A stretch of 30,742 bases of DNA from a virus. The stretch's first letter is position 1; each line of letters begins with the position of its first letter. Location of the stretch: positions 1 to 30,742 of the IMG/VR virus record IMGVR_UViG_3300027868_000022; one strand, 5' to 3'. Below, in pieces: positions 8,790-30,742 of the stretch. The position numbers and the translations under genes are program-made. The notes beneath the pieces were generated by a model, which did no database searches, was not told the origin of the DNA, and saw nothing but the letters and a program-made list of their open reading frames with translations.

Positions 8790-9215
8790 TTATATACCCT
8801 TCCAATATGTTCTTTCTGAAAAGCGATATCCCATCCTTCCGTAATATTCAGCCATGTCATCTTTGATATCTATCATGCCAAATGCCTTTGCCCCCATCTC
8901 CATTGCAATCAATTCCGCCTCGACTAAAAGTTCTTTCCCTACACCGGTTTTTCTTGCCTCTGTATTCACCCACCAAAATAATTCCTGCCCAACCAAAGTT
9001 CCTAAAAAACTGTCACAAACGACAAAACAAATAACACCATTGATGCCATCTACATCACTCACTAAAAATACAACGGTTTCTTCCCTGATGGCATTTTCAA
9101 GAAACTTCATAGCCTTGTCTAAATTTGTTGGGAATGGCGCATTAAGATAAGATAGAAACTCTTCTCCCATCTGTCTTAATACCGGAATATCTTCTACTTT
9201 TGCCCTACGCAGCAT
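8790..9215 (-). CDS. GNAT-family N-acetyltransferase (141 aa)
   Basis: The fold signature is clear. The N-terminus LRRAKVEDIPVL is a standard GNAT opening strand and helix. The central strand ELFWWVNTEARKTGVGKELL holds the acetyl-CoA pyrophosphate loop (R-K-T-G-V-G-K), and the C-terminus YYGRMGYRFSERTYWK is the usual last helix and strand. It would transfer an acetyl group from acetyl-CoA to an amine; the acceptor is unknown. I prefer the ATG at 9215, since the longer form needs a TTG. GNAT-like genes occur among podovirus virion and ejection genes, so a structural or regulatory use is possible. It overlaps the upstream gene by 11 bases. Confidence 0.85.
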   Translation of the reverse strand: MLRRAKVEDIPVLRQMGEEFLSYLNAPFPTNLDKAMKFLENAIREETVVFLVSDVDGINGVICFVVCDSFLGTLVGQELFWWVNTEARKTGVGKELLVEAELIAMEMGAKAFGMIDIKDDMAEYYGRMGYRFSERTYWKGI

Positions 9216-9507
9216 TGATAACCGCAATCTTATCCGAAGGATTACACGGTCTGGTTACATAAATACCTGACTTCAAAAACGCGCCACTCGCCGTTGTTGC
9301 AGTCGGCGCGGCCCCAATGGCAATAAACGCATCTTCCGTGGAAATGATAGTCACAATCGTAGTGGCATTGCTAAAAGCAGCACTCAATTGTGAAGACGTG
9401 GACATTGATACCAAATGCGAGGTTCGTACATCCAGCATAGGAACGTATGTATCGTCTATTGGATGTTTAACTAAACCCCTGGATTCCGTAATACTGACCC
9501 ATGCCAT
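9205..9507 (-). CDS. Hypothetical phage structural-region protein (100 aa)
   Basis: Small Thr/Ser/Ala-rich beta-type protein without recognisable motifs. The start is set at the ATG at 9507 (MAWVSITES), because a GAGG ribosome-binding site sits seven bases upstream and the preceding gene ends just before it; a longer reading would overlap that gene by 70 bases. It lies between the gp10-like and GNAT genes. Possibly a minor virion or tail component; unrecognised. Confidence 0.7.
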   Translation of the reverse strand: MAWVSITESRGLVKHPIDDTYVPMLDVRTSHLVSMSTSSQLSAAFSNATTIVTIISTEDAFIAIGAAPTATTASGAFLKSGIYVTRPCNPSDKIAVINAA

Positions 9508-9508
9508 A

Positions 9509-9886
9509 TCAAAACCTCGTTGCTTTAATCTTGTATACCTTTGGCTGAACTTTTGCCCCGCTCGCAGTAAAATTACCAAACCGAATAGTTACCTGATCCG
9601 TTGCGCTGGAATATGCACCAATGATCATGGCAGAACCACTAGCCTTGGAAGGTTCGGCAATTGAAATCAAATCATCAGGAACAACGCCTTTAACCGTCCT
9701 TTCTTTATTGGTTATCGAACTCGCCACGGCAGTAAAGGTTGATGTGAAACTGATAAAGAAAGTCCTGGTCTGGCGCAACGAATCATCATGCAAACGAGTC
9801 AACCACTGCGCTAATTGTGGCAGTCCCTTCTCTTCCAATTCCTCGAAAGGGATGCGTGATACCCTGGACTTGGCAATCTTGCTCAA
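9509..9886 (-). CDS. Hypothetical phage protein (125 aa), TTG start
   Basis: No family recognised. It has a charged N-terminus (EELEEKGLPQLAQWL) and a Ser/Thr-rich C-terminus. The only plausible early start is TTG at 9886, preceded by an AAGG-type ribosome-binding site and overlapping the gp10-like gene's stop (TTGA). The coupling and spacing support it as real. The position next to the DNA-stabilisation gene suggests a tail-machine accessory. Confidence 0.65.
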   Translation of the reverse strand: MSKIAKSRVSRIPFEELEEKGLPQLAQWLTRLHDDSLRQTRTFFISFTSTFTAVASSITNKERTVKGVVPDDLISIAEPSKASGSAMIIGAYSSATDQVTIRFGNFTASGAKVQPKVYKIKATRF

Positions 9887-11277
9887 AGCATCCCTTCTTC
9901 CACTTGCATAATGGAATCAGTTAAGGTTGTCTCAACATCACTCGCTACCTCCACCTGGAATATCCTTTCCTTGCTTGAACCTAATCTGCTGAACCCTACG
10001 CGCTCCATCCTGTTACCGATACCGCCTAACGTGTGTTCCTGGAAATTTGACCATACATGTCCACGATCATCTGAATAACTCAACCTTACCTTGGGGTCTT
10101 CACTTCCCGCCTTACCCACCCCTACCGCCATGATCAATTCCAGATAACTGTAAACAATGCTGTTTCGACTTGAGATCAAGTTCGGCCCCATTCTCTTCTT
10201 TACCGAATGAACGCCGTTATCCTGAAAAAGCGTATCCTTCAGTTGATAGATGTTCCCGTTGTAATGATCAGATATCAGATACCGCCCATCGAAATGCACA
10301 AAATACTTACCCGTATGCCTGCGCTTTGCTCCCATTGGATGCCACGCCTGCCATTCGTGCCACTGTCCCTCTTCAGCATCAAATATCCAGGTTGCGTTTC
10401 CTGAAGGAAACTGAAATACCAGGAATTGCCCTAATCCCGGAAACTTGAAACTCCACGCAGTTGCGTCCGAAATCTTCTCGTAACTCTGCCACTCTTTTTC
10501 TATAACGGAATTACTTATCCTCTGCACCGCAAACCCCTGCGTCTTAACCGCTATCCTTCCAACTTCTCCTGAATCTGCCAGCCATGCAACATTGTTATCG
10601 AACTTGGTCAATGTCTCCGGTGCCGCTATTCCATAATCCTGAAATGCACTTCTGTTGGGATTCCACGGGAAAGCCTCGCCAGAATAAAACCATACCTCCA
10701 ATGATCTTTCCCCCAACATCCACAGATCGTTCCTGTTGACCAAAACCGCCTCCACTTTATCTGGAGACTGCTCTATGGTCGCAAACTCGCCGGCCCAATT
10801 GATTGCATCGAAGGGATTAGTCGCTTTGTAAAATTCGGCTGAATCCCCCTTAATGACTCCGAAAAAGCCATTATCAAACAAAGCATGATGGGGATTATTG
10901 GGTAGCCCGGTAGCAACAATTAGTTTACTCCCGTCCCATACATACCCTTCCTTGCCATCTGTGAACAAAGCCTCGTTCCCATCAAACCCACTGGAAGCAA
11001 TCTGTACCGGCCCAATGTCAGTGGCTAACTCTCCAATTTTAGTAGCAAAACCCCCTTTGGACACACTATAGACTTCCGTAGCGGAGACAACCAAAAGAAC
11101 GTCTTTGTGATGTTCCCAACCTCGTATCGGTCCCTCTCCGGTGACTGTCCAGGTGTCATATCCTGGTTTCGCTCTTAATGTATTTCCTTTGGGGAACCAG
11201 TTCACACATCGTTGTTGCTCTGCCAGAAGAAAGGTATTGTCATACGTCTTCCCAATGAACGGAGCAGGAATACTCAC
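9883..11277 (-). CDS. P22 gp10-like packaged-DNA stabilisation / tail hub protein (464 aa)
   Basis: Matches the phage stabilisation protein family: similar length to P22 gp10 (472 aa), an N-terminal strand leading to CVNWFPKGNT, a YDTWTVTGEGPIRG-type blade, then repeating beta blades with WFYSGEAFPWNPNRSAF (about 197-213), a Trp/Phe-rich IEKEWQSYEKISDATAW segment, and a final beta domain with YSDDRGHVWS. In P22 this protein plugs the portal channel after packaging and carries the tail needle. GTG start at 11277 overlaps the upstream stop (GTGA). It lies downstream of the gp4-like gene in the same operon, as expected. Confidence 0.8.
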   Translation of the reverse strand: MSIPAPFIGKTYDNTFLLAEQQRCVNWFPKGNTLRAKPGYDTWTVTGEGPIRGWEHHKDVLLVVSATEVYSVSKGGFATKIGELATDIGPVQIASSGFDGNEALFTDGKEGYVWDGSKLIVATGLPNNPHHALFDNGFFGVIKGDSAEFYKATNPFDAINWAGEFATIEQSPDKVEAVLVNRNDLWMLGERSLEVWFYSGEAFPWNPNRSAFQDYGIAAPETLTKFDNNVAWLADSGEVGRIAVKTQGFAVQRISNSVIEKEWQSYEKISDATAWSFKFPGLGQFLVFQFPSGNATWIFDAEEGQWHEWQAWHPMGAKRRHTGKYFVHFDGRYLISDHYNGNIYQLKDTLFQDNGVHSVKKRMGPNLISSRNSIVYSYLELIMAVGVGKAGSEDPKVRLSYSDDRGHVWSNFQEHTLGGIGNRMERVGFSRLGSSKERIFQVEVASDVETTLTDSIMQVEEGML

Positions 11278-11630
11278 GTTGGGATGGTTCCATTATCTTG
11301 CAGTACTGAAATGAGATCATCCAGTCTGTCTTTGATATCAGGGACCGCATTACCCGTACCTTTATCATCCCTGACCTTATCCTTGCGTCCCTGAATAGCC
11401 GCCTTTTCCGCCGCTTCCGCCGCATTCGCCGCTTGTGTTTCTAAAGCGGTCCAGTTACGCAACGTCAGGGTGGCAAGATCAACGCGCCATTCTTTTCTGT
11501 TTATACGCTTTTCAACTACTGAAAGAACAGCCTGCCCAGGAGTCACTGCTGCAATAGCGTCTGCATCCACCTGCCGATCTAACGGACCACCAACAATCAA
11601 TCCGGTTGCCGATTCATATACGATAAACAT
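11274..11630 (-). CDS. Hypothetical protein, possible fibre-associated (118 aa)
   Basis: An N-terminal beta part (about 1-60) resembles the start of small tail-fibre-assembly proteins. It is followed by an Ala/Glu-rich helix (about 62-85) and a charged, Asp-rich tail ending IKDRLDDLISVLQDNG. It lies immediately after the tail-fibre gene (ATG abuts that stop), which is where fibre chaperones usually sit. No specific family is recognised, so the chaperone idea is inference. Confidence 0.65.
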   Translation of the reverse strand: MFIVYESATGLIVGGPLDRQVDADAIAAVTPGQAVLSVVEKRINRKEWRVDLATLTLRNWTALETQAANAAEAAEKAAIQGRKDKVRDDKGTGNAVPDIKDRLDDLISVLQDNGTIPT

Positions 11631-13133
11631 TTAAATCCCCCTCCCAAAATACCACCCTTGGGTGTCTATTTTTAATGTCTCTGCGCCGGCGGCATCCGGT
11701 TTGAATCCTACACTTTGCGAACCATCTGTAATGATGGCAGTAATATTGTCTTTTTCCTGATTACTGATCAAAGTATGGCCCGTCCCATCAACCTGACCCG
11801 TAGTCTCCCAATGCCAACCTGGAGTCGCGCTGGATTCAGCATATATTTGCGCACGTATGGCAAACTTCGGGATAGATAAAGTCACTGGCGTGAATGATGC
11901 GTCGGCCAAATTCGTTGCGGCAAGGTCTTCTATATCAGTTGCGTATACCACCATTTCTTTTTCATGGAAGAATTCCAGTATTTGATTGGACCCGTCTGTT
12001 CTAAATCCGAAAATACACCTGTCCGAACCGTTGTACCATCCATGCTTGGATTCAGACCAGGTTGGGGCCGTTGTCGAGTTTATAAACTCTGACGCAGTTA
12101 AGATATTCGTTCCCAATGTTACAACCTTAGAATCATCTATATAGAAATGATGTTGTTCACTGGCACCCAAATTAGTCGAATCACCATTCGATCCGCCTGA
12201 TCCGGCAGTAAATGTAATTAGAGAGTTCCAGGTTAATGTTTGATCAACCGTTCCGGCATGATGGTATGACCCGGCAGATATGGTAATTGCTGTAACTGAA
12301 CTAAAAGTGAACTGACTTCTTACAGCTTGCCCAGGGTAAGCACCAGCTAAAGTTGATGTGAGTTGATATAATTTGAGATTGTCAAACTGAGTGGTGAATT
12401 GCGTAGCATGTGCGTTGCCATAAACAATTAACTTGCCGTGTGCTGTCGTTGCAGGGGGGGTGGCGGAAAAAGCGACCTTCCTTGTCCACGAGGTTTCCGT
12501 AGTCCCGAGATCCCCACTATATAAAGTGGCTGTGGATATGGAGGATTGGTCCTTATCCAGCCAATTAATGTCTATCTTTGGATTAGCCGTTGCATTATTC
12601 GCAATAATGTCGAAATCAATAAGCAAATCCAACAACTCTTCAACAGCAAAAGCATCGGACGTTACAAACTCTTCGGAGTTTTGAGATAAAGTAAATTTTA
12701 GACTCGCCGCTCCGTGCGACTGATCTGCGATATCTCTGGTAATCAAAGCACCGGGGTCCGTCTCAGTCCAGTTCTTAACCGCTTCAGGAGGAGTCCCTGC
12801 GTTCTCGAAACTGGGGTTACTCAGCATATTCTCTTGTAGGTCCGCACTGGACGGACTGAGGTCCGCCCCTAGAAAGGAATGCGTATCGACGGCAGACCCC
12901 GAAGCATCAAGAATAGTCACATCATAGAGTCCATTCTCCAAAAGATAGATATCCGCTTTCCCGGCAGAATCCAAAGTGACTGGATTTGAATTCGTGGCAG
13001 TTAAGGAATAATTAGAAAAAGTGTTCTTGTCCGTGCTGGTTCCCGCAGCATCGAAGGCTACGGTCCCTAACGCATTGATCGTCCCATCCGCCTTTATGGA
13101 AGGAGTGTAAGTTGTGAAAAATACTCGCCTCAT
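11631..13133 (-). CDS. Tail fibre / tailspike-like protein (500 aa)
   Basis: The N-terminal 90 residues follow the phage head-binding pattern: a short strand, AGTSTDKNTFSNYS, then NSNPVTLDSAGKADIYL and a final strand DVTILDASGSAV. Next comes a carbohydrate-binding-like beta domain (about 105-260; NPSFENAGTPPEAVKNW). The C-terminal part (about 270-500) is Trp/Gly-rich. Such layouts belong to receptor-binding fibres. The start ATG overlaps the gp4-like gene's stop (ATGA). The fibre-assembly candidate follows directly. Receptor and any enzymatic activity cannot be deduced. Confidence 0.8.
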   Translation of the reverse strand: MRRVFFTTYTPSIKADGTINALGTVAFDAAGTSTDKNTFSNYSLTATNSNPVTLDSAGKADIYLLENGLYDVTILDASGSAVDTHSFLGADLSPSSADLQENMLSNPSFENAGTPPEAVKNWTETDPGALITRDIADQSHGAASLKFTLSQNSEEFVTSDAFAVEELLDLLIDFDIIANNATANPKIDINWLDKDQSSISTATLYSGDLGTTETSWTRKVAFSATPPATTAHGKLIVYGNAHATQFTTQFDNLKLYQLTSTLAGAYPGQAVRSQFTFSSVTAITISAGSYHHAGTVDQTLTWNSLITFTAGSGGSNGDSTNLGASEQHHFYIDDSKVVTLGTNILTASEFINSTTAPTWSESKHGWYNGSDRCIFGFRTDGSNQILEFFHEKEMVVYATDIEDLAATNLADASFTPVTLSIPKFAIRAQIYAESSATPGWHWETTGQVDGTGHTLISNQEKDNITAIITDGSQSVGFKPDAAGAETLKIDTQGWYFGRGI

Positions 13134-16382: not shown

Positions 16383-17857
16383 TGCGCTACTGCCACCAAC
16401 GGGACTTGTCCAGCAATGATGGACTTCCCGGTAATGACTTTAGAGAAATCACCCGTCTTCAAACACGCCGCTAATTTCTGCGCCGCGTAATTAATTGCCG
16501 GTTCCCACGTATCCCCTTTCTGTTGGCGGATCAAATCTACCGATTGATACCACGGGAAATCGCCGGTTACTCCGTATCTCCACGCAGGCGCATAAGGGGT
16601 AAGACATAGACATTGAACCCCCAAGGCACCGCAAATATGAATTGCAGTCTGACAAACGGAAATTACCAAGTCGAGGTTACAGACCAGGGCCGCGTAATGG
16701 TCCATATCCTTTGCTTCAGCAGCATCCTTCCAATGGATGATCCGTAACCCGGTTTCGGCCTTGAAAGCCATCACTTCTTCCTTGGCTGGCTGTGTGTACT
16801 GTAACGAGATAAAGTCCGCTTCCTGCTCGATAATCGACTGAAACTCGTTTAACCGAATGGTTCTCAGATCAACTCGGGTACTGGGTACACCCCCCTGCCA
16901 TGCGATGCCTATCTTTGGTCTGGCCCCAAGACTTTTAAGCCTCTTGGCATAATATTTCTTTAACTTAGGATCAGGAATCAGATAAGGCGTCCCAGGAATG
17001 TTCCCTTCAGAACGGTACAGGTTGCCGAAAGAACCAACCCCTAATTTGTAATCTACCGTCCTATCTCCTTTCCATTCAGAACCATCCAACCGGTTCGTTC
17101 CTATAACTTTACAATCTATCGAACGGTTGAATAATCCTTCCATTCTCGGAGTACACTCGAAAACCAACTCTGCTCCGGATTCCAACGCTGCAGCAAAACA
17201 AGTGGCGAATAAAACCTCGTCACCAATCCCCTGTTCCCCATGAATAGCAACCAAACCCTTTGCCTTACCATCCCACCACGGCGTCATTCCCTTTTTGGCA
17301 TAATTGCGCATGTTGGGAATATCACTTCCCGTTCCCTGGAAAACCCCGGCAAACCGCGCCTCATAAAGTGCGAATCCTTCTTTCCACTGCTGGAGTTCCA
17401 TTAAGGCTAACGATTTGTGCCACTTGGACTGTTGGTGTTCGGGATCAATCTCTAAAGCCTTGTTACACAACTCAATAGCTACTTCCGGCTCGCCCTCGTT
17501 GATATAACAACCAGCGCAATTAGACGGATAATCAGCACAATCGGGATTTATCTCCCAGGCTTTTTGGAAACATGCCGCCGCCTGTTCCTTGAAAAATTCT
17601 TTCTTGTAACTAATCCCTAAATTGTTCCACGCTTCCGGGAATTGGCCCATGTCTTCCAGACACTTTTCAAGCAGAATTATAGCTAATCCATTATTCCCTT
17701 TCTGCATGTTCAACGAACCTAGCAAATACAACAGTCCACTATTCGCTATTTGCCGGTTCAAAATTGCGTTGTATCTTTTCTCAGCCTCGATTAAATTTCC
17801 TTTTTCATGTAAGGCTTGCGCTTCACTATAAAGGTCTTTCCAATCGTATAGTTTCAT
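16379..17857 (-). CDS. TPR-repeat protein fused to a heptosyltransferase-like GT-B domain (492 aa)
   Basis: The N-terminal 170 residues hold four to five tetratricopeptide-like units (A-W-NNLGISYKK, AIELCNKALEIDP and similar). The second part (about 195-470) carries the hallmark blocks of TPR-linked glycosyltransferases: HGEQGIGDEVLFA (206-218), KIGIAWQGG (315-323), DLVISVCQTAIHICGALG (396-413) and PAWRYGVTGDFPWY (424-437). In many relatives the DLVISV block is followed by D-T-A; here it reads C-Q-T-A. It is the first gene after the terminator, with a GGGGGGAGA ribosome-binding site. The likely role is sugar transfer on a host or virion glycan; donor unknown. Confidence 0.85.
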   Translation of the reverse strand: MKLYDWKDLYSEAQALHEKGNLIEAEKRYNAILNRQIANSGLLYLLGSLNMQKGNNGLAIILLEKCLEDMGQFPEAWNNLGISYKKEFFKEQAAACFQKAWEINPDCADYPSNCAGCYINEGEPEVAIELCNKALEIDPEHQQSKWHKSLALMELQQWKEGFALYEARFAGVFQGTGSDIPNMRNYAKKGMTPWWDGKAKGLVAIHGEQGIGDEVLFATCFAAALESGAELVFECTPRMEGLFNRSIDCKVIGTNRLDGSEWKGDRTVDYKLGVGSFGNLYRSEGNIPGTPYLIPDPKLKKYYAKRLKSLGARPKIGIAWQGGVPSTRVDLRTIRLNEFQSIIEQEADFISLQYTQPAKEEVMAFKAETGLRIIHWKDAAEAKDMDHYAALVCNLDLVISVCQTAIHICGALGVQCLCLTPYAPAWRYGVTGDFPWYQSVDLIRQQKGDTWEPAINYAAQKLAACLKTGDFSKVITGKSIIAGQVPLVAVAQ

Positions 17858-17871
17858 TCTCCCCCCAAAGA

Positions 17872-17895
17872 AAACCCCCTCCGAAGAGGGGGTTT
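17872..17895 (-). terminator. Rho-independent terminator after the capsid/decoration genes
   Basis: A perfect 10-bp inverted repeat (arms AAACCCCCTC and GAGGGGGTTT) around a TTCG tetraloop on the minus strand, followed on that strand by TTTTC in the arm and tail. It lies 25 bases past the stop of the 146-aa gene. A second palindrome, GGGTTAACCC at 17911-17920, lies between the stop and the terminator. Presumably it limits transcription into the sugar cassette. Confidence 0.85.
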
Positions 17896-22741: not shown

Positions 22742-22898
22742 TTTGTAACCTCGGGTCTTTTCCCGGTTCCTTACTTTTAGGGTCGCCATACTTCAAACAA
22801 CACTCACGGCACAGCGTCTCAGTTTCCCAAAACATTTTATGTCTGCCATCACACCCACAGCACGCACAATTAAACCGGGATTTATATTTAGGATTCAT
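22722..22898 (-). CDS. Small Cys-rich, probable zinc-binding protein (58 aa)
   Basis: Contains CACCGCDG and LCRECC, giving two CxxC-type pairs that fit one zinc site, then a charged C-terminus. Its ATG overlaps the terminase stop (ATGA); an ATG four codons earlier (22910) is an alternative. Length and cysteine pattern are consistent with a small zinc ribbon that binds nucleic acid or a protein; not recognised. Confidence 0.65.
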   Translation of the reverse strand: MNPKYKSRFNCACCGCDGRHKMFWETETLCRECCLKYGDPKSKEPGKDPRLQNETNRH

Positions 22899-25402
22899 GC
22901 CGCCATCCAACTCCGTCTCCGAGTCTTGGGTTTATCATCATATCGCTGCCGTGCCGCCTCCTTTTTCGGAGTCAACAAATCATAGGCAAACAACCTCGTT
23001 GCATCGTACTGAAGCGCATCATGCGGATGCGAATAATCGTTCTTCTCCGGTTTCTCGGAAATCGTACCGGCTTTGTTCATCATCTTGCGGTAGAAATACC
23101 CACCCTTGAATCCCTTCCGCAAGACCTTGCACCGGGGGTGCATGACAAATCCATCCTTGCGTCCCATCGGCTTTCTGACCGCTTCAATTCTAATCCCAGG
23201 TTCCTGAGTCCCCGGTTCGATCATGATCCCCTTTGAACGGAGTATCTGGAAACAGGTTTTTTCATCGACCTGACTCCTTGCGTCTCCGGCAGGATCACCG
23301 AAATCCTGAAAGATGAAATCAGGATAATGCTGATTGCAGTAGGTGATTAAATCATCACTGAACCGGTCTACCGCAATATTGGTCCCAACGAATTCATCCA
23401 GAATCCGCCACTGGCCGGAAGGGTGCATCTGCGAGAACGTCACCGCTGGCGTATTGCCGTTCCAGTGCGGTTTGCCGCCTCGCCTCACATATAACGTGTG
23501 ATAAGGAACATTCAAACAATATATTCTTCCGTCATATTGCACCCTTCGGAAACTGCGCTTATGAAATTCTGCACGTTGGGCGTGTTTCTTAAATGTGATG
23601 GAATAACCGCCTTTATTCGTTATTACACGTGCCGTATTACCTTCCGCCATTACGCTTTGCTGCGGCGCAACCACACGAAGAGATGTATTCCATCCAACCT
23701 TTTGCGCCAACTCCTGCAACGCCCCTGCCATCGTCAGAGAGGTAGTAAAGATGGTGTGTTCTTCAACCCCGTTTCGCACTCGGATATGTCCATCACCAAT
23801 GGTATAAAATCGTATGAAATTGAGAATATGACTCGTCGGCATCTGCTTGATTATCGGATGCACATACTTAATACAGGCGCGCCCAAACGCATTGAGAAAT
23901 AACGCTAATTCAGGATCGTACAACCTCCACCCTGCCGCCTTCCCGCCATCCTTCCTGCGCCAATCCTTGCCGGTCTCCCTCAGAAGATCAGCAATTTCCC
24001 TGTTATTTTCCTTCTGATAAATAGACACCCGATTGCCGTCCGTGCAACCCTCACTGAGATATATACCCATGAAACCAGCAAATACTTTAGACGATATACC
24101 GAAATATTCCTTCTCCCGGTAATCAGGACTCCACTGCGAACATAAATCGACATAATGATGACCACTCATGTTTTCAGATAACCATTGCGCACTCGCCCAA
24201 TGCACCTTGTCAGGAGTATCGCGATACGTAAACGGAACCACATGTTCTGGCGTAACGCACATGTTCATCTCAGTGTTGGCCCATTCAAGCATTTCTCCCC
24301 TGTATGGACGATCAACCTTGAAATTAATATCCGTATATTCCATCAGCCCCGTATCCGGGTTCCGTGTAGCAACCTGGTCGAATACCTCATCAACATCCTT
24401 AAATAATTTCCACCCTGATTTGGTCAACACTTCCGTATCATCGGAATAACATAAACCAAAGTCCCAACCACGGCGAATCATCAACCCCTCCGTAACATCA
24501 AACTCCCCACAATGCACCGCATCGTCATACTCGGGATAAACCGGCTGTCCATCAATGATGAACCCATAATCCCCATGAATGTAGACTTTGATGTATTCAG
24601 ACTTCTTGCCGGCGGCCAGATTCTTGTAGTAGTCCTTTTTTAGATTGACTAGATTCTCAGCTTTGGGACTCAACCCCGAAGGTTGCTTGAACAACTCGTA
24701 CTTATCGTGCTTGCGACAAAAGGCAAACTCTTCATGCGTGAACTTGTTGAAGACCCGAACAGACGGTTCCCCACACTTCTTACCCGTCGAATCTTCGATG
24801 ATCTCAGTACAAACCCTGGATGTGTCCAACGACTCTTCAAAATGCCGGTACCACCAGGAATCAGTGTCAGGAGGATTGGTATCCATAATCACCCCATCCC
24901 AGGTACACCCCTCTTCCCGAAACGAAGGATACCGACCTACACGTCCCTGTATAGCCTCGAAAATAGCTTCAGGGACTTCCCTGGCTTCGTTCAACCACGC
25001 ACCCGTGTACTCCGTTGAAAGAAGGTTCTCGACCTGATCCGGCCTGTCTAAAGCACGGAAAAGTATCTCGATCTCACAATCCTTGAATCGCGTGATCTTG
25101 TATTCATGCTTCTGCGTGTGATACTTCCCGAAAATCCGCGGCGGGAACCAATCGTGAACCGTCCTAATGGTTGAATCATTCAACTGCGGATACGAATTCC
25201 GGATAACCGCCCAACGAGTCCTGCGTATCCCATCCGCCCCCGGTCGCTGTTCCATCCCCCGACGAATGATCTCCAACACACACCCCGAAGACTTGCCCGA
25301 CCCGAACGGACCCATGATCCCCCGAATGAACTTGGTGGAATCGGTGAATCGCTCTATCGTCGGGACCGGTCCATAATCGTACTCAATCTTCTTGTTCGTC
25401 AC
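22895..25402 (-). CDS. terL: Terminase large subunit with an intein (835 aa precursor, about 502 aa after splicing)
   Basis: The ATPase is shown by Walker A GPFGSGKS (residues 31-38) and the Walker B-like GAWLNEARE (134-142), where Asn stands before the Glu. The nuclease domain has the RuvC-like first Asp in RGWDFGL (D314), then FQDFGDPAG (D700, D703) and HPHDALQY (D795). Between D314's motif and the following TPAVTFSQ an intein is inserted. The extein join WDFGL-TPAV restores the standard terminase motif. Packages DNA with the small subunit and cuts concatemers. GTG start overlapping the preceding stop (GTGA). Confidence 0.92.
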   Translation of the reverse strand: MTNKKIEYDYGPVPTIERFTDSTKFIRGIMGPFGSGKSSGCVLEIIRRGMEQRPGADGIRRTRWAVIRNSYPQLNDSTIRTVHDWFPPRIFGKYHTQKHEYKITRFKDCEIEILFRALDRPDQVENLLSTEYTGAWLNEAREVPEAIFEAIQGRVGRYPSFREEGCTWDGVIMDTNPPDTDSWWYRHFEESLDTSRVCTEIIEDSTGKKCGEPSVRVFNKFTHEEFAFCRKHDKYELFKQPSGLSPKAENLVNLKKDYYKNLAAGKKSEYIKVYIHGDYGFIIDGQPVYPEYDDAVHCGEFDVTEGLMIRRGWDFGLCYSDDTEVLTKSGWKLFKDVDEVFDQVATRNPDTGLMEYTDINFKVDRPYRGEMLEWANTEMNMCVTPEHVVPFTYRDTPDKVHWASAQWLSENMSGHHYVDLCSQWSPDYREKEYFGISSKVFAGFMGIYLSEGCTDGNRVSIYQKENNREIADLLRETGKDWRRKDGGKAAGWRLYDPELALFLNAFGRACIKYVHPIIKQMPTSHILNFIRFYTIGDGHIRVRNGVEEHTIFTTSLTMAGALQELAQKVGWNTSLRVVAPQQSVMAEGNTARVITNKGGYSITFKKHAQRAEFHKRSFRRVQYDGRIYCLNVPYHTLYVRRGGKPHWNGNTPAVTFSQMHPSGQWRILDEFVGTNIAVDRFSDDLITYCNQHYPDFIFQDFGDPAGDARSQVDEKTCFQILRSKGIMIEPGTQEPGIRIEAVRKPMGRKDGFVMHPRCKVLRKGFKGGYFYRKMMNKAGTISEKPEKNDYSHPHDALQYDATRLFAYDLLTPKKEAARQRYDDKPKTRRRSWMAA
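23453..24451 (-). mobile_element. Intein with LAGLIDADG homing endonuclease inside terL
   Basis: Residues 318-650 of the precursor (333 aa), in frame. It opens with Cys318 (CYSDDTEVLTKSGW, block A); CVTPEHVV at about 382-389 is block B (T-P-E-H). Two dodecapeptide endonuclease motifs keep their acids: GIYLSEG (E451) and FYTIGDG (D537). It ends with IYCLNVPYHTLYVRR and HWNGN, so the last Asn is preceded by Gly rather than the usual His; +1 is Thr651. All splicing residues other than that Gly look intact, and both endonuclease acids suggest an active homing enzyme. Confidence 0.9.
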
Positions 25403-27994: not shown

Positions 27995-28090
27995 TTTCCC
28001 GGCCTTTTAAGCTTCGTCAGTTGTCCTCTAACGCACGATCTCATAGTGAGGTATAGGGTAGTGAGGGTGTATTTTGTTCATTTTCTCTCA

Positions 28091-28156
28091 TTTATCGGAT
28101 AAACGGTATGCTTTGGTACTTGCAATATCATTGTAATGGTACGACAATCATTGTTA
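28091..28156. promoter_or_regulatory. Candidate operator cluster
   Basis: TTTATC-G-GATAAA at 28091-28103 is a perfect palindrome. Further right, ATCATTGT occurs at 28127-28134 and 28147-28154, 20 bases apart (about two helical turns), each the right arm of an imperfect dyad (CAAT-ATC-ATTG; ACAAT-C-ATTGT). This is how repressor sites are often laid out. The binding protein is not identified. Confidence 0.45.
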
Positions 28157-28282
28157 ACGGAACTGATTGACAGGGAAACTATCCGCCGCACCGGGCAGGG
28201 ATTCTGAATACGCCACGTTCAACGGAAAGTCTGAAACGCCATTATGTAGAGTTATGGCGTAAATACTCCACAGTTTATAAGC

Positions 28283-28353
28283 GTGCGCTGTTTATGAGAC
28301 GGTGCACTCGCGTATTAACTGAACACCAACTGATTAACCACAATACCGGAGTA
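28283..28353 (+). promoter_or_regulatory. Intercistronic-type leader 1: TTATGAG hairpin and CCGGAGTA box
   Basis: A 9-bp stem with two G-T pairs (GTGCGCTGT, 28283-28291; ACGGTGCAC, 28299-28307) closes the loop TTATGAG. CCGGAGTA follows at 28346-28353, six bases before the ATG of the first rightward gene. It contains the Shine-Dalgarno GGAG. The loop is shared with leader 4. Confidence 0.65.
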
Positions 28354-28359
28354 TAAAAA

Positions 28360-28545
28360 ATGATCAAGACAACCAAAGAACAACGCGCCGCCCTTTGGCG
28401 CATCTTTAACCGTAAGACCGATACACCCCAATCCCTAACATATCGTCAATTTCGTAAAACTGTTGCCCCTGGGTTCGGTTATATCATGGTCCCTTGGGGC
28501 GGTATGTATCTTGGGATTGAGTTAGATGGATACACCCATTCCTGA
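28360..28545 (+). CDS. Conserved phage hypothetical protein (61 aa)
   Basis: Begins with a Lys/Thr helix (KTTKEQRAALWRIFNRK), then YRQFRKTVAPGFGYIMVPWGGMYLGIELDGYTHS, shortened here to YRQFRKTV and LGIELDGYTHS. This short family recurs in phages but has no assigned function. First gene of the rightward operon, after leader 1 and its CCGGAGTA box. Probably early or regulatory by position. Confidence 0.75.
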   Translation: MIKTTKEQRAALWRIFNRKTDTPQSLTYRQFRKTVAPGFGYIMVPWGGMYLGIELDGYTHS

Positions 28546-28556
28546 TAATAATCACA

Positions 28557-28564
28557 CCGGAGTA
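28557..28564 (+). promoter_or_regulatory. CCGGAGTA box 2 (no clear hairpin)
   Basis: Exact copy of the box, seven bases before the next ATG. The 12-base gap after the previous stop leaves no room for the hairpin module seen at the other copies; only a weak ATGG/CCAT pair lies upstream inside the gene. Confidence 0.7.
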
Positions 28565-28571
28565 AACAATT

Positions 28572-28775
28572 ATGAATTACATCAAATACCTAGAATCCGA
28601 AAACAAAAACAATGCAGCGCGTATCTGTGCCTTTGCGGCTACGATTCAAGATATACAGGAATACCTATTATCTGATAAGTTTTTTACAGATCCCACAGTG
28701 CAGACACAGGACATTTTAACCCGCCTTCAACAAGGGTTAGATCATTACAACATACTATTGGAGGTACGCCCATAA
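28572..28775 (+). CDS. Conserved phage hypothetical protein (67 aa)
   Basis: Mostly helical: YIKYLESENKNNAARICAFA, then YLLSDKFFTDPTVQTQDILTRLQ. The YLLSxKF and tVQ-xDIL-RL pattern is seen in small phage proteins of unknown function. Follows the first gene after a CCGGAGTA box and shares its stop with the J-domain gene's start (TAATG). Confidence 0.75.
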   Translation: MNYIKYLESENKNNAARICAFAATIQDIQEYLLSDKFFTDPTVQTQDILTRLQQGLDHYNILLEVRP

Positions 28776-29272
28776 TGTACTTCCAATCCTGCACTACAAC
28801 TGCCGAAGTTAAGACACTGTACCGTCGTTTGGCGATGCAACATCACCCGGACCGCGGTGGTAATAACGCGACTATGCAAGCCATCAATACTGAATACCAC
28901 GCTACGTTGTTACGTATGAGCGGCGAGACGGTAACCGGTACTGATGGCCGACAGCATACATACCACTACAATCAGACGACGGAGCAGTCCGTTATGGATA
29001 AGATCGGCGAACTGGTCGGCCTTGGTATGGTTGATGTTGAGATCCTGCTAATCGGTAGCTGGATCTGGATTACTGGCAACACCAAGCCATATAAGGCGCA
29101 ACTAGGCCACAACGGTGTTAAGTGTCGCTGGCATAGCAAGCGCGAAGCATGGTACTGGCACGTACCGTCAAAGCGCCGTCAACGTTTCAATAAAAGCGTA
29201 GATTTAAACGGATTGGCGCAAGCTTACGGATGCAAGTCTTTTGATTCTGACGAACGAAAAAAGGTGGCCTAG
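28775..29272 (+). CDS. J-domain (DnaJ-like) protein (165 aa)
   Basis: The first 55 residues are a J domain: LYRRLAMQHHPDRGGN contains the HPD tripeptide needed to stimulate Hsp70 ATPase, with helices on both sides. A second domain follows (about 85-155; GSWIWITGNTKPYKAQL, WYWHVPSKRRQR), which recurs with J domains in phage and mobile-element proteins. It would recruit host DnaK; the client is unknown. GGAGGT lies about nine bases upstream and the ATG overlaps the previous stop. Confidence 0.88.
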   Translation: MYFQSCTTTAEVKTLYRRLAMQHHPDRGGNNATMQAINTEYHATLLRMSGETVTGTDGRQHTYHYNQTTEQSVMDKIGELVGLGMVDVEILLIGSWIWITGNTKPYKAQLGHNGVKCRWHSKREAWYWHVPSKRRQRFNKSVDLNGLAQAYGCKSFDSDERKKVA

Positions 29273-29461
29273 ATGAACCTTAGCAACGCTGTGAAATTAA
29301 TGAAACGTAAAGCCAGACTTGATCCAGATAACGTCTATTTTGTTGTCTATGATCCAGACTGGCCTAACGATCGCAACGGCTACCACGTGGCCGATGAAAT
29401 TGACCTTGACACCTTTTACCAAGGTATCCCCGAATATTATATTTTGGATTCTTGCCCGTAA
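29273..29461 (+). CDS. Small acidic hypothetical protein (62 aa)
   Basis: Asp-rich with aromatic patches (VYFVVYDPDWPNDRNGYHVADE) and a C-terminal IPEYYILDSC. The start ATG directly follows the J-domain gene's TAG. Similar small acidic proteins occur in phage early regions. No function can be assigned. Confidence 0.7.
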   Translation: MNLSNAVKLMKRKARLDPDNVYFVVYDPDWPNDRNGYHVADEIDLDTFYQGIPEYYILDSCP

Positions 29462-29472
29462 GTTGATGAGTC

Positions 29473-29529
29473 TAGACTGCCTAGTAATAGGCAGTCTACG
29501 CGCATCAATCCCGATGCTATACCGGAGTA
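29473..29529 (+). promoter_or_regulatory. Intercistronic leader 3: GNRA hairpin, second hairpin, CCGGAGTA box
   Basis: Perfect 11-bp stem (TAGACTGCCTA, 29473-29483; TAGGCAGTCTA, 29488-29498) with a GTAA tetraloop. A second stem GCATC/GATGC (29502-29506, 29513-29517) follows. CCGGAGTA at 29522-29529 lies eight bases before the ATG. No T-run follows, so it is not a standard terminator. Confidence 0.75.
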
Positions 29530-29537
29530 ATCATAAA

Positions 29538-29780
29538 ATGAAAACTGAACAAGAATTATTGAACGAAGCCTATGCTGTACAAGATGCGTGTAATCTTTCC
29601 GGCGTTGTGCATTCTTTTTCGCGTGCTATTTCATCTTTACGTGAGATATCAGAATGCACAGATACAGACTATATCAATCAACACCTTATTTGCGTTTTAT
29701 ATGCTGATAAAATCGTTGACCTAGCACGTGCACGGTCCTCCCACCGTGTCAGTGAAGCATACGAGGCCGCCGGGCACTAG
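29538..29780 (+). CDS. Conserved phage hypothetical protein (80 aa)
   Basis: The ATG at 29538 is set by the CCGGAGTA box; a longer frame upstream has no such site and would run through leader 3. Helical with a Ser/Cys-rich middle (ISECTDTDYINQHLICVLYADKIVDL) seen in other small phage proteins. Function unknown. Confidence 0.75.
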   Translation: MKTEQELLNEAYAVQDACNLSGVVHSFSRAISSLREISECTDTDYINQHLICVLYADKIVDLARARSSHRVSEAYEAAGH

Positions 29781-29784
29781 GTTT

Positions 29785-29841
29785 GCAGTCTATCCCGTTT
29801 ATGAGACGGGATACGCGGCAATCCTGCCGTATACCGGAGTA
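29785..29841 (+). promoter_or_regulatory. Intercistronic leader 4: GCAGTCTA, TTATGAG hairpin, second hairpin, CCGGAGTA box
   Basis: GCAGTCTA (29785-29792) matches the 3' arms in leaders 3 and 5. An 8-bp perfect stem (TATCCCGT, 29791-29798; ACGGGATA, 29806-29813) holds the loop TTATGAG. CGGCA/TGCCG (29816-29820, 29825-29829) forms a second hairpin. CCGGAGTA is at 29834-29841, six bases before the ATG. Confidence 0.75.
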
Positions 29842-29847
29842 TTAAAA

Positions 29848-30354
29848 ATGCAATTTACAACTAAAATCGAACAAGCATGCGCTAATAAATCAGACGTCCG
29901 CTATTGCCTGCATGGAGTATTGATTGATCCTGATCACAAGGTAGCCGTGGCAACCAACGGCCAGATCATGGCAATTACCCCCGTGGATATCGAGGGCGAA
30001 CAATTGCAAGACCGGATTATGCCGCTGGAGTCCGTCAAGGCCGCACAGAAAAAAGAGTGTGGCTTCGAGTTAACAGACACCGGCGTCAAGGTTTCCAATT
30101 GCGAGTCCGTCTCGGATTTTAAATATGTTGATGGCAAGTTTCCGAATTACCGGGCCGTGATTGAACCTAAAACGGATAACTACATAGTCCTTAATGCGGA
30201 ACTATTAGTCAGACTGCAACGCGCCTTGACTGACAAGGGTCGTACGGATGCCGGAGTCAAGCTGTACATACCTGAAACCGCAGGAGACGGATACCGCGTT
30301 GAGTCCACAACGAATCCGGACAACTACGGCGTAATTATGCCTATGCGCGAATAG
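29848..30354 (+). CDS. Sliding-clamp-like (DnaN/beta-type) protein (168 aa)
   Basis: Reads like a shortened bacterial clamp: LHGVLIDPDHKVAVATNGQI (clamp strand with ATDG-type turn), DGKFPNYRAVIEP in the middle, and the C-terminal VIMPMRE, which matches the conserved VMPMRL end of DnaN. A full DnaN has three domains in about 366 aa; this protein has about half, so it could pair as a multimer or bind partner proteins of the host clamp. Preceded by leader 4. The start follows the CCGGAGTA box. Replication role inferred. Confidence 0.65.
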   Translation: MQFTTKIEQACANKSDVRYCLHGVLIDPDHKVAVATNGQIMAITPVDIEGEQLQDRIMPLESVKAAQKKECGFELTDTGVKVSNCESVSDFKYVDGKFPNYRAVIEPKTDNYIVLNAELLVRLQRALTDKGRTDAGVKLYIPETAGDGYRVESTTNPDNYGVIMPMRE

Positions 30355-30361
30355 CCAGTTA

Positions 30362-30418
30362 ACTGCATCCTAGCGATAGGGTGCAGTCTAGTGGCAAACC
30401 ACCACGTCAACCGGAGTA
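30362..30418 (+). promoter_or_regulatory. Intercistronic leader 5: GNRA hairpin, second hairpin, CCGGAGTA box
   Basis: An 11-bp stem with one G-T pair (ACTGCATCCTA, 30362-30372; TAGGGTGCAGT, 30377-30387) has a GCGA tetraloop. GTGG/CCAC (30391-30394, 30399-30402) is a small second stem. CCGGAGTA at 30411-30418 lies seven bases before the ATG. Confidence 0.75.
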
Positions 30419-30425
30419 TAAAATT

Positions 30426-30742
30426 ATGCCTTTCCTACAAGCATCGGAAACGAAAGCAATCCGTAACGCCATAAAGGCTAAATATCCCACCTTTAAATGG
30501 TCTATTGCCACAGTACATGGCACCACATTGTCTGTGCATGTTATGGCTGGACCGATCCGTTTCGACCAGGATAACTTCAACGTCAACCATTTTTGGATTG
30601 ATAGACAATTCAAAGATAAACCAACGGAGCGGCGTTTTTTTACCTATCTTTTGGATCTTATCCGGGAGGTTAAACCCTGCCGTACCGTTACCCACGACGG
30701 CGACTATGGCGCCGTTCCCAATTACTACATCCATATCGAAGT
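30426..30742 (+). CDS. Truncated gene resembling the LPD29 domain (at least 105 aa)
   Basis: Open from ATG at 30426 through the window end, so it is partial. The start MPFLQASETKAIRNAIKAKYP, shortened here to SETKAIRNAIKAKYP, followed by FKWSIATVHGTTLSVHVMAGP, resembles the LPD29 domain found in large phage and mobile-element polyproteins (an FP-x-KFSV, V-x-V-x-W-x-GP type pattern). Placed after the CCGGAGTA box of leader 5. Function of that domain is unknown. Confidence 0.7.
   Translation, partial: MPFLQASETKAIRNAIKAKYPTFKWSIATVHGTTLSVHVMAGPIRFDQDNFNVNHFWIDRQFKDKPTERRFFTYLLDLIREVKPCRTVTHDGDYGAVPNYYIHIE

Follow-up and report, generated by a model that had tools for sequence, protein, structure and literature searches.

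The leaders that precede several genes of the phage operon analysed here are a selected RNA element, conserved in shape, as supported by the covariation of their stems in relatives. By analogy with known systems and from structure modelling, we tentatively read them, with a confidence that falls slightly short of even, as conserved intergenic RNA in which an RNase III-type cut would generate capped mRNA units, combined with a phage-specific box that extends the Shine-Dalgarno (SD) sequence.

A repeated box upstream of start codons in the rightward operon

The window, i.e. the whole stretch of DNA analysed (30,742 bases), is a linear IMG/VR record and probably a fragment of a virus genome. A P22-type portal and the large terminase are encoded leftward, while a rightward operon of seven genes runs from 28360 to the contig end and includes a DnaJ-like protein gene (28775), a beta-clamp-like gene and, downstream of leaders, small genes of unknown function. 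Since this operon continues past the contig end, more leader copies may be missing from the record. Another locus (L024, 8.8 kb) has a portal identical to that of the record and is too small to cover the rightward operon.

The sequence CCGGAGTA is present in exactly five copies in the record, all of them on the + strand and 6 to 8 nt before an ATG, just as the original prediction had it, against a mean of 0.43 and a maximum of 2 in 100 dinucleotide shuffles. Three of the copies are enclosed in the 11-mer ATACCGGAGTA, which had also been pointed out. The boxes and the clamp gene are the following:

28346 to 28353, + strand: box 1, CCGGAGTA, 6 nt 5' of ATG 28360
28557 to 28564, + strand: box 2, CCGGAGTA, 7 nt 5' of ATG 28572, in a 26-nt gap without hairpin module
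29522 to 29529, + strand: box 3, CCGGAGTA, 8 nt 5' of ATG 29538
29834 to 29841, + strand: box 4, CCGGAGTA, 6 nt 5' of ATG 29848
30411 to 30418, + strand: box 5, CCGGAGTA, 7 nt 5' of ATG 30426
29848 to 30354, + strand: beta-clamp-like gene; in other phages, its relatives bear the same type of leader

Genes 28775 and 29273, which overlap or abut a neighbour, have neither box nor hairpin. The box is best read as an extended SD site acting independently of the hairpin, and the two are separable, since gene 28572 has the box and no hairpin, the clamp leader of L131-type records keeps the box and is devoid of hairpins, and the letters of the box change between phages while the shape of the hairpin is kept. 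In the L131-type records, the clamp leader and its hairpin-bearing neighbour share one box, and a promoter-like stretch replaces the clamp hairpins; judging from sequence, a sigma-70-like promoter appears to lie immediately 5' of the clamp. This layout is consistent with a role of the hairpins for internal genes and of the box for translation.

Hairpin leaders in the window

A common plan is seen in the leaders before the clamp gene and before its downstream neighbour: an upper stem of 10-14 bp (upper hairpin, HP1), a 1x1 mismatch, 2 bp, another 1x1 mismatch and a lower stem of 4-8 bp make up the long form, and 3' of the lower stem come a second hairpin (HP2), whose 5' arm is the 3' strand of the lower stem, the SD box and the ATG. 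In the window, hairpins are found 5' of boxes 1, 3, 4 and 5, with a second hairpin clear at boxes 3, 4 and 5, in agreement with the four stem-loops and three second stems originally described. Leaders 3 and 4 conform to the strict pattern, and leaders 1 and 5 do so loosely. Their parts are listed here (R1 is the covariance model described below):

28271 to 28321, + strand: leader 1 (gene 28360), from MFE folds, with upper hairpin 28283-28307 and loop TTTATGAGA
28271-28275 (CAGTT) and 28317-28321 (AACTG), + strand: flanks of leader 1, with 4 of 11 flank pairs in strict register, a loose fit to the common pattern
28263 to 28269, + strand: ATACTCC, complementary to GGAGTAT of box 1 (28348-28354) by sequence and in the MFE fold, in leader 1 only
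29462 to 29509, + strand: long form of leader 3 (gene 29538), from its fold (-31.1 kcal/mol), the unbiased flank test and rank 2 with R1
29462-29468 (GTTGATG) and 29503-29509 (CATCAAT), + strand: lower stem of leader 3
29473-29483 and 29488-29498, + strand: upper stem of leader 3, with GTAA loop, preceded from the lower stem by mismatch A.G, GT/GC and mismatch C.C
29502 to 29517, + strand: HP2 of leader 3, GCATC 29502-29506 with GATGC 29513-29517, overlapping the 3' strand of the lower stem (p 0.06 against shuffles)
29783 to 29821, + strand: long form of leader 4 (clamp gene 29848), from its fold, the unbiased flank test and rank 1 with R1
29783-29786 (TTGC) and 29818-29821 (GCAA), + strand: lower stem of leader 4
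29791-29800 and 29804-29813, + strand: upper stem of leader 4, preceded from the lower stem by mismatch A.G, GT/GC and mismatch C.C
29815 to 29830, + strand: HP2 of leader 4, GCGGCA 29815-29820, loop ATCC and TGCCGT 29825-29830 (p 0.01 against shuffles), covarying with four other phages
30354 to 30395, + strand: long form of leader 5 (gene 30426) in loose register, with lower stem GCCA 30354-30357 and TGGC 30392-30395
30362 to 30387, + strand: upper stem of leader 5, with GCGA loop, above a larger internal loop
30391 to 30402, + strand: HP2 of leader 5, GTGG 30391-30394 with CCAC 30399-30402, overlapping the 3' strand of the lower stem

In folds of 70 nt (-80 to -11), the leaders of ATGs 29538, 29848 and 30426 reached -31.1, -30.1 and -26.6 kcal/mol, values equalled by 0.05%, 0.15% and 0.7%, respectively, of the 70-nt windows of the record. 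The leader of 28360 is unremarkable in this measure (24%) because its hairpin sits further upstream; for this leader, the folds suggest ATACTCC as a possible long-range anti-SD. A stability scan of the record revealed no comparable leaders before the leftward genes, which use varied ribosome sites, as had been noted; a single leftward leader, the one before 17857, is as stable and turned out to be an intrinsic terminator. On the + strand, neither a U tract nor a terminator-like site was found in 28000-30742; sigma-70-like sites showed no excess in that region, and none lies within the leaders on this strand. Short upstream ORFs starting from the loops of leaders 1 and 4 were considered and dropped, as there are none in leaders 3 and 5.

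Relatives with a clamp gene

A blastn search with the 26-30.7 kb region gave no match in cultured phages, and single-protein searches with the clamp and TerS returned zero or one weak relative. Scanning for a loop-plus-box pattern yielded six matches, apparently due to chance. Most of 80 loci related by their portal are devoid of the system, and only L063 (record G001) combines the clamp with boxes: it has five copies of ACAGGGGAA before ATGs, on the strand opposite to the portal and most with a hairpin upstream, and one of the boxed genes is the clamp homologue, which a protein search of 50 records found in G001 alone. The alignment of the two clamp sequences led to 71 viral loci with a clamp gene, and the common plan is kept, with different sequences, in many of them. 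L145 and most G001 leaders consist of a single hairpin, with no lower stem.

Box letters vary among phages while the shape of the hairpin stays, and the box can be uniform within a phage, being AGGAGAAATGAGAA in L145 (8 copies), ACCTAGTGAGGGA in L117, AAAGGACAAT in L126 and L137, and TATAGGGG in L139. With the upstream regions of the other records as reference, about 10 records out of 70, one of them the window, stand out for box uniformity (p<=0.04; many of the records are short). Uniformity as a universal trait was rejected on these numbers; within-phage uniformity is real, not universal.

Covariation of the stems

In an unbiased test, the collection of upper stems near the clamp (minimum length 8 bp) came first, and their flanks were compared afterwards. 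The flanks of 55 dereplicated hairpins located 18-75 nt before an ATG formed 6.15 of 11 pairs, compared with 4.36 when flanks were swapped between hairpins (maximum 4.94 among 300 swaps), whereas for 107 hairpins located elsewhere the values were 3.86 and 4.12. From position 2, the pairing profile of the flanks was 0.75, 0.67, 0.40, 0.62, 0.65 and 0.69, where the dip is the second mismatch. With a cruder count, 42 tandem hairpins were found upstream of starts, against 10.8 in shuffles. An initial strand A-strand B test, run on short windows, gave a moderate signal (p<0.1 in 12 of 39) and has been superseded by the flank test.

Alignment A4 is composed of 18 homologous leaders, with window sequences excluded. 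In it, 97.2% of the cells are paired (98.6% in the lower part by itself) and 11 of the 18 pairs are compensated, with changes on both sides; RNAalifold recovers the fold on its own. All five covariation measures were above every one of 500 shuffles, and registers slid along the alignment fell to 30-52% pairing; shuffle tests are inflated by relatedness, but the slid controls retain that relatedness and yet fail. Covariation extends over both HP1 and HP2 in a set of six clamp leaders to which the window contributes two (11 of 18 pairs, 4 of 6 in HP2). HP2 is stronger than its shuffles, at p<=0.1, for 13 leaders out of 29, and for 15 out of 107 hairpins located elsewhere. Most of the mismatches are A.G and U.C, and the two core pairs between them are mostly CG/CG or CC/GG, with letters that vary (CG/CG, CC/GG, GU/GC).

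A search of relatives and a covariance model had been proposed together with the original prediction. The layout is present in many of the 71 clamp loci, and model R1, built from A4 and thus free of window sequence, placed leader 4 first (13.5 bits, E 0.13) and leader 3 second (9.1 bits, E 2.1) in the window, with weak E-values; the same alignment without structure (R2) listed neither of the two leaders there. The shape is common to the window and its relatives; leader by leader, the link is statistically weak. R1 had matches at E<=0.1 in 30 of the 40 clamp records, in most cases between one and three in each; some of these records belong to the training set, and many of the strong matches do not. 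In the fetched regions of cultured phages with a distant clamp (BcepC6B, Bcep781, pIS4-A, ZCKP8, Tbat1_6, XX1924 and AP-16-3), R1 gave no match at E<=1. A clamp scan of bacterial genomes hit mostly Betaproteobacteria and other Proteobacteria; these matches are taken to be largely host DnaN, and R1 found nothing near them. Rfam 15 has no match in the window region (E<=1) or in seven relatives (gathering threshold), and the leader element is apparently an undescribed RNA element.

The box is not genome-wide and structure is conserved in relatives, the two points on which the original prediction had said that it could fail. Its idea of a coordinated translational or RNA-processing signal is partly supported: the covariation favours a real selected RNA element, and a single signal finds no support, box and hairpin being separable.

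A proposed processing model and its alternatives

In the reading that we favour, a double-strand-specific endonuclease would act on the long form (about two helical turns, with two 1x1 mismatches around 2 bp); host RNase III is the most likely candidate, with the T7 early-region sites as the model. Cleavage would fall on the 3' side, within the mismatch region or close to it. The upstream mRNA would thereby keep HP1 as its 3' cap; the lower strands would part, HP2 would fold and cap the downstream mRNA at its 5' end, and the box would be exposed, the operon being converted into capped units that share one translation start signal. Since the long form is favoured over HP1 plus HP2 by a mean of 5 kcal/mol (by more than 1 in 29 of 32 leaders), HP2 would form only if strand A were taken away or kept apart, which such a cut would bring about. 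With the 5' part removed, predicted SD exposure goes up in 13 and down in 2 of 34 leaders; in the window it rises in leader 1 (0.10 to 0.75), leader 3 (0.08 to 0.54) and leader 4 (0.42 to 0.78), and drops in leader 5 (0.29 to 0.08). Both comparisons, of energy and of exposure, refer to leaders that had been selected by the presence of a lower stem, and shortening an RNA in any way tends to free bases. It is also conceivable, at appreciably less than an even chance, that the leaders represent an undescribed phage 'cut-and-cap' family, in which one strand would be half of a nuclease substrate and then a 5' protective hairpin, the other hairpin would protect the 3' end, and the whole would recur, with its sequences rewritten, between genes of beta-clamp phages.

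Of the options originally offered (repressor site, ribosome-recruiting structure, RNase site), an RNase processing site fits best, judged by analogy. A bistable regulatory RNA or protein site is possible but rather unlikely; here a phage or host protein, or a ligand, would bind the mismatched hairpin, tip the equilibrium of the two folds towards the long form or HP2 and in this way coordinate how the genes of the operon are translated. The mutually exclusive folds, the fairly constant mismatches and core, and the uniformity of the box within some phages would suit such a site, but the SD lies outside HP2, which leaves no obvious on/off state, the variation in core letters fits shape over a sequence-specific site, and the two folds are unbalanced by the 5 kcal/mol mentioned above. 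We consider it unlikely that the leaders are recombination cassettes like the PeSLs of T4-type phages, i.e. shuffled gene-plus-leader units with boxes made uniform by gene conversion. The small genes of unknown function after the leaders, the boxes uniform within and not between phages, and the modules of L145, which begin with GTATAATAC (10 copies vs 0.14 expected) followed by hairpin and box, point in that direction; however, compensatory changes in the stems maintain RNA pairing and not DNA homology, of which the diverged stems offer little, and the window leaders contain no promoter.

Stable intergenic hairpins, two of them in tandem, might also be elements acting on transcription along the operon, either intrinsic terminators or put-like antitermination hairpins. 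This we regard as very unlikely in view of the lack of U tracts and of + strand terminator calls in 28000-30742, and of the association of the hairpins with start codons and SD boxes, while they are missing between overlapping genes. That ordinary SD sites, alike by accident, coincide with chance hairpins is hardly tenable: GGAG is a common SD core, but five boxes stand against 0.43 expected, three leaders are within the top 0.7% of stability, and both the covariation in relatives (0 of 500 shuffles) and the flank test contradict chance hairpins.

Comparison with known systems

The kind of element to which the leaders belong, intergenic phage modules for mRNA processing and translation start, is already known. 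T7 early mRNA is divided at five RNase III sites (PMC4858673); in R1.1, cleavage by RNase III is confined to one strand by internal mismatches, and a stem of 12 bp can be enough (PMC8708148). Like these sites, which lie in the early operon of T7, the leaders are intergenic in a polycistronic operon and have a stem of about two turns with a mismatched or looped middle, and leaders 3 and 4 are mostly double-stranded hairpins of about 20 bp with central mismatches, as expected for a T7-type site. They differ in that two 1x1 mismatches flanking 2 bp take the place of the R1.1 loop, in the re-pairing of a lower-stem strand into HP2, and in the repeated SD box attached.

The nearest description of a repeated start box with upstream inverted repeats is that of SAS and ESAS in cluster K mycobacteriophages, where an SD-containing box lies a few nt before the ATGs of non-structural genes, mostly behind larger gaps (PMC3203893). 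ESAS are inverted repeats of fixed consensus upstream of a subset of SAS, for which RNA pairing was argued against and DNA-binding sites were favoured (PMC3203893). The window box resembles SAS in its distance to the start (6-8 nt) and its single orientation (+), but CCGGAGTA within ATACCGGAGTA deviates from the 13-bp SAS GGGATAGGAGCCC by more than the two positions tolerated; unlike ESAS, the stem letters of the leaders vary and compensate as RNA pairs.

PeSLs (promoter early stem-loops), according to a paper that cites them (PMC4503421), are repeated intergenic stem-loop cassettes before phage genes, to which the leaders are similar. L145, a different phage, shows a TATAAT-like box, a hairpin and a ribosome-binding site, in line with the early promoter that lies directly before the stem-loop of a PeSL; the window leaders differ in having neither promoter nor terminator tail. 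In T4, the RegB nuclease signal is at GGAG in the ribosome-binding sites of early genes, strong sites being GGAGRAYARAA, and RegB is inhibited by structure (PMC3014915). The five window boxes all have GGAGTA, and they differ from RegB sites in the T that follows GGAG, a position that calls for a purine.

This work describes a structured RNA without an Rfam entry. Its own covariance model recovers it from about 30 records of uncultured phages, at a place in the genome where phages are known to exert control over mRNA processing and translation. For SAS/ESAS, the function of which has been a question since 2011, it provides a counterpart that covaries. As a design it lends itself to testing, since the prediction is that a small intergenic element divides one message into separately capped and similarly translated units.

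The family of the window gene at 29848-30354 (+) is annotated as a RusA-like resolvase by PHROG 3007 and in several phage annotations, and as DNA polymerase III beta subunit by Pfam and in some records; similarity at the sequence level supports a short beta-clamp.

In the leaders of six viral loci sharing this gene (L117, L118, L120, L122, L130 and L148), the 5' strand of the lower stem frequently starts at the stop codon of the upstream gene (TAGTGCTCGAC). Given this arrangement, TAGTG/TAATG could allow restart of a short ORF running through the hairpin in several phages, an option absent from the L123 leader, which has TAATAC instead. In L145, a further locus with a relative of the clamp gene, GTATAATAC was found in 10 copies (0.14 expected) in the region 9000-12700, several of them followed by a hairpin, AGGAGAAATGAGAA and an ATG; these modules resemble PeSL cassettes, the promoter early stem-loops of T4-type phages.

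Two leftward features of the window were also recorded:

17865-17895 (-), strong intrinsic terminator, CCCCCTC TTCG GAGGGGG TTTTCTTT, immediately preceding the leftward gene that starts at 17857
22895-25402 (-), large terminase ORF, 835 aa, terminase match at residues 28-190

The terminase ORF also matches the thymidylate synthase family (residues 317-389) and contains a LAGLIDADG-like domain (residues 526-578). It looks like a terminase carrying an intein-type or homing-endonuclease insertion.

Candidate start-associated element in DnaJ relatives

Seven loci with relatives of the DnaJ-like gene (L005, L007, L008, L009, L011, L013 and L014) share a highly conserved element of around 50 nt, GAGCCAGATGCCAAAATAAGTCCGCAGGGCAGCGG and variants. 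Example copies, directly before ATGs, are:

L014:220-275
L014:770-822
L014:1155-1210

Group II intron pieces were also located near the DnaJ-like gene of one of these phage contigs:

L013:3589-3665 (-)
L013:5765-5910 (-)

No covering Rfam match to the element was obtained in L006, L013 and L014. Each phage has 2-4 copies, each immediately 5' of an ATG, and the DnaJ-like gene is among the genes preceded in this way. Differing from the leader element of the clamp phages, it is a candidate second start-associated RNA element.
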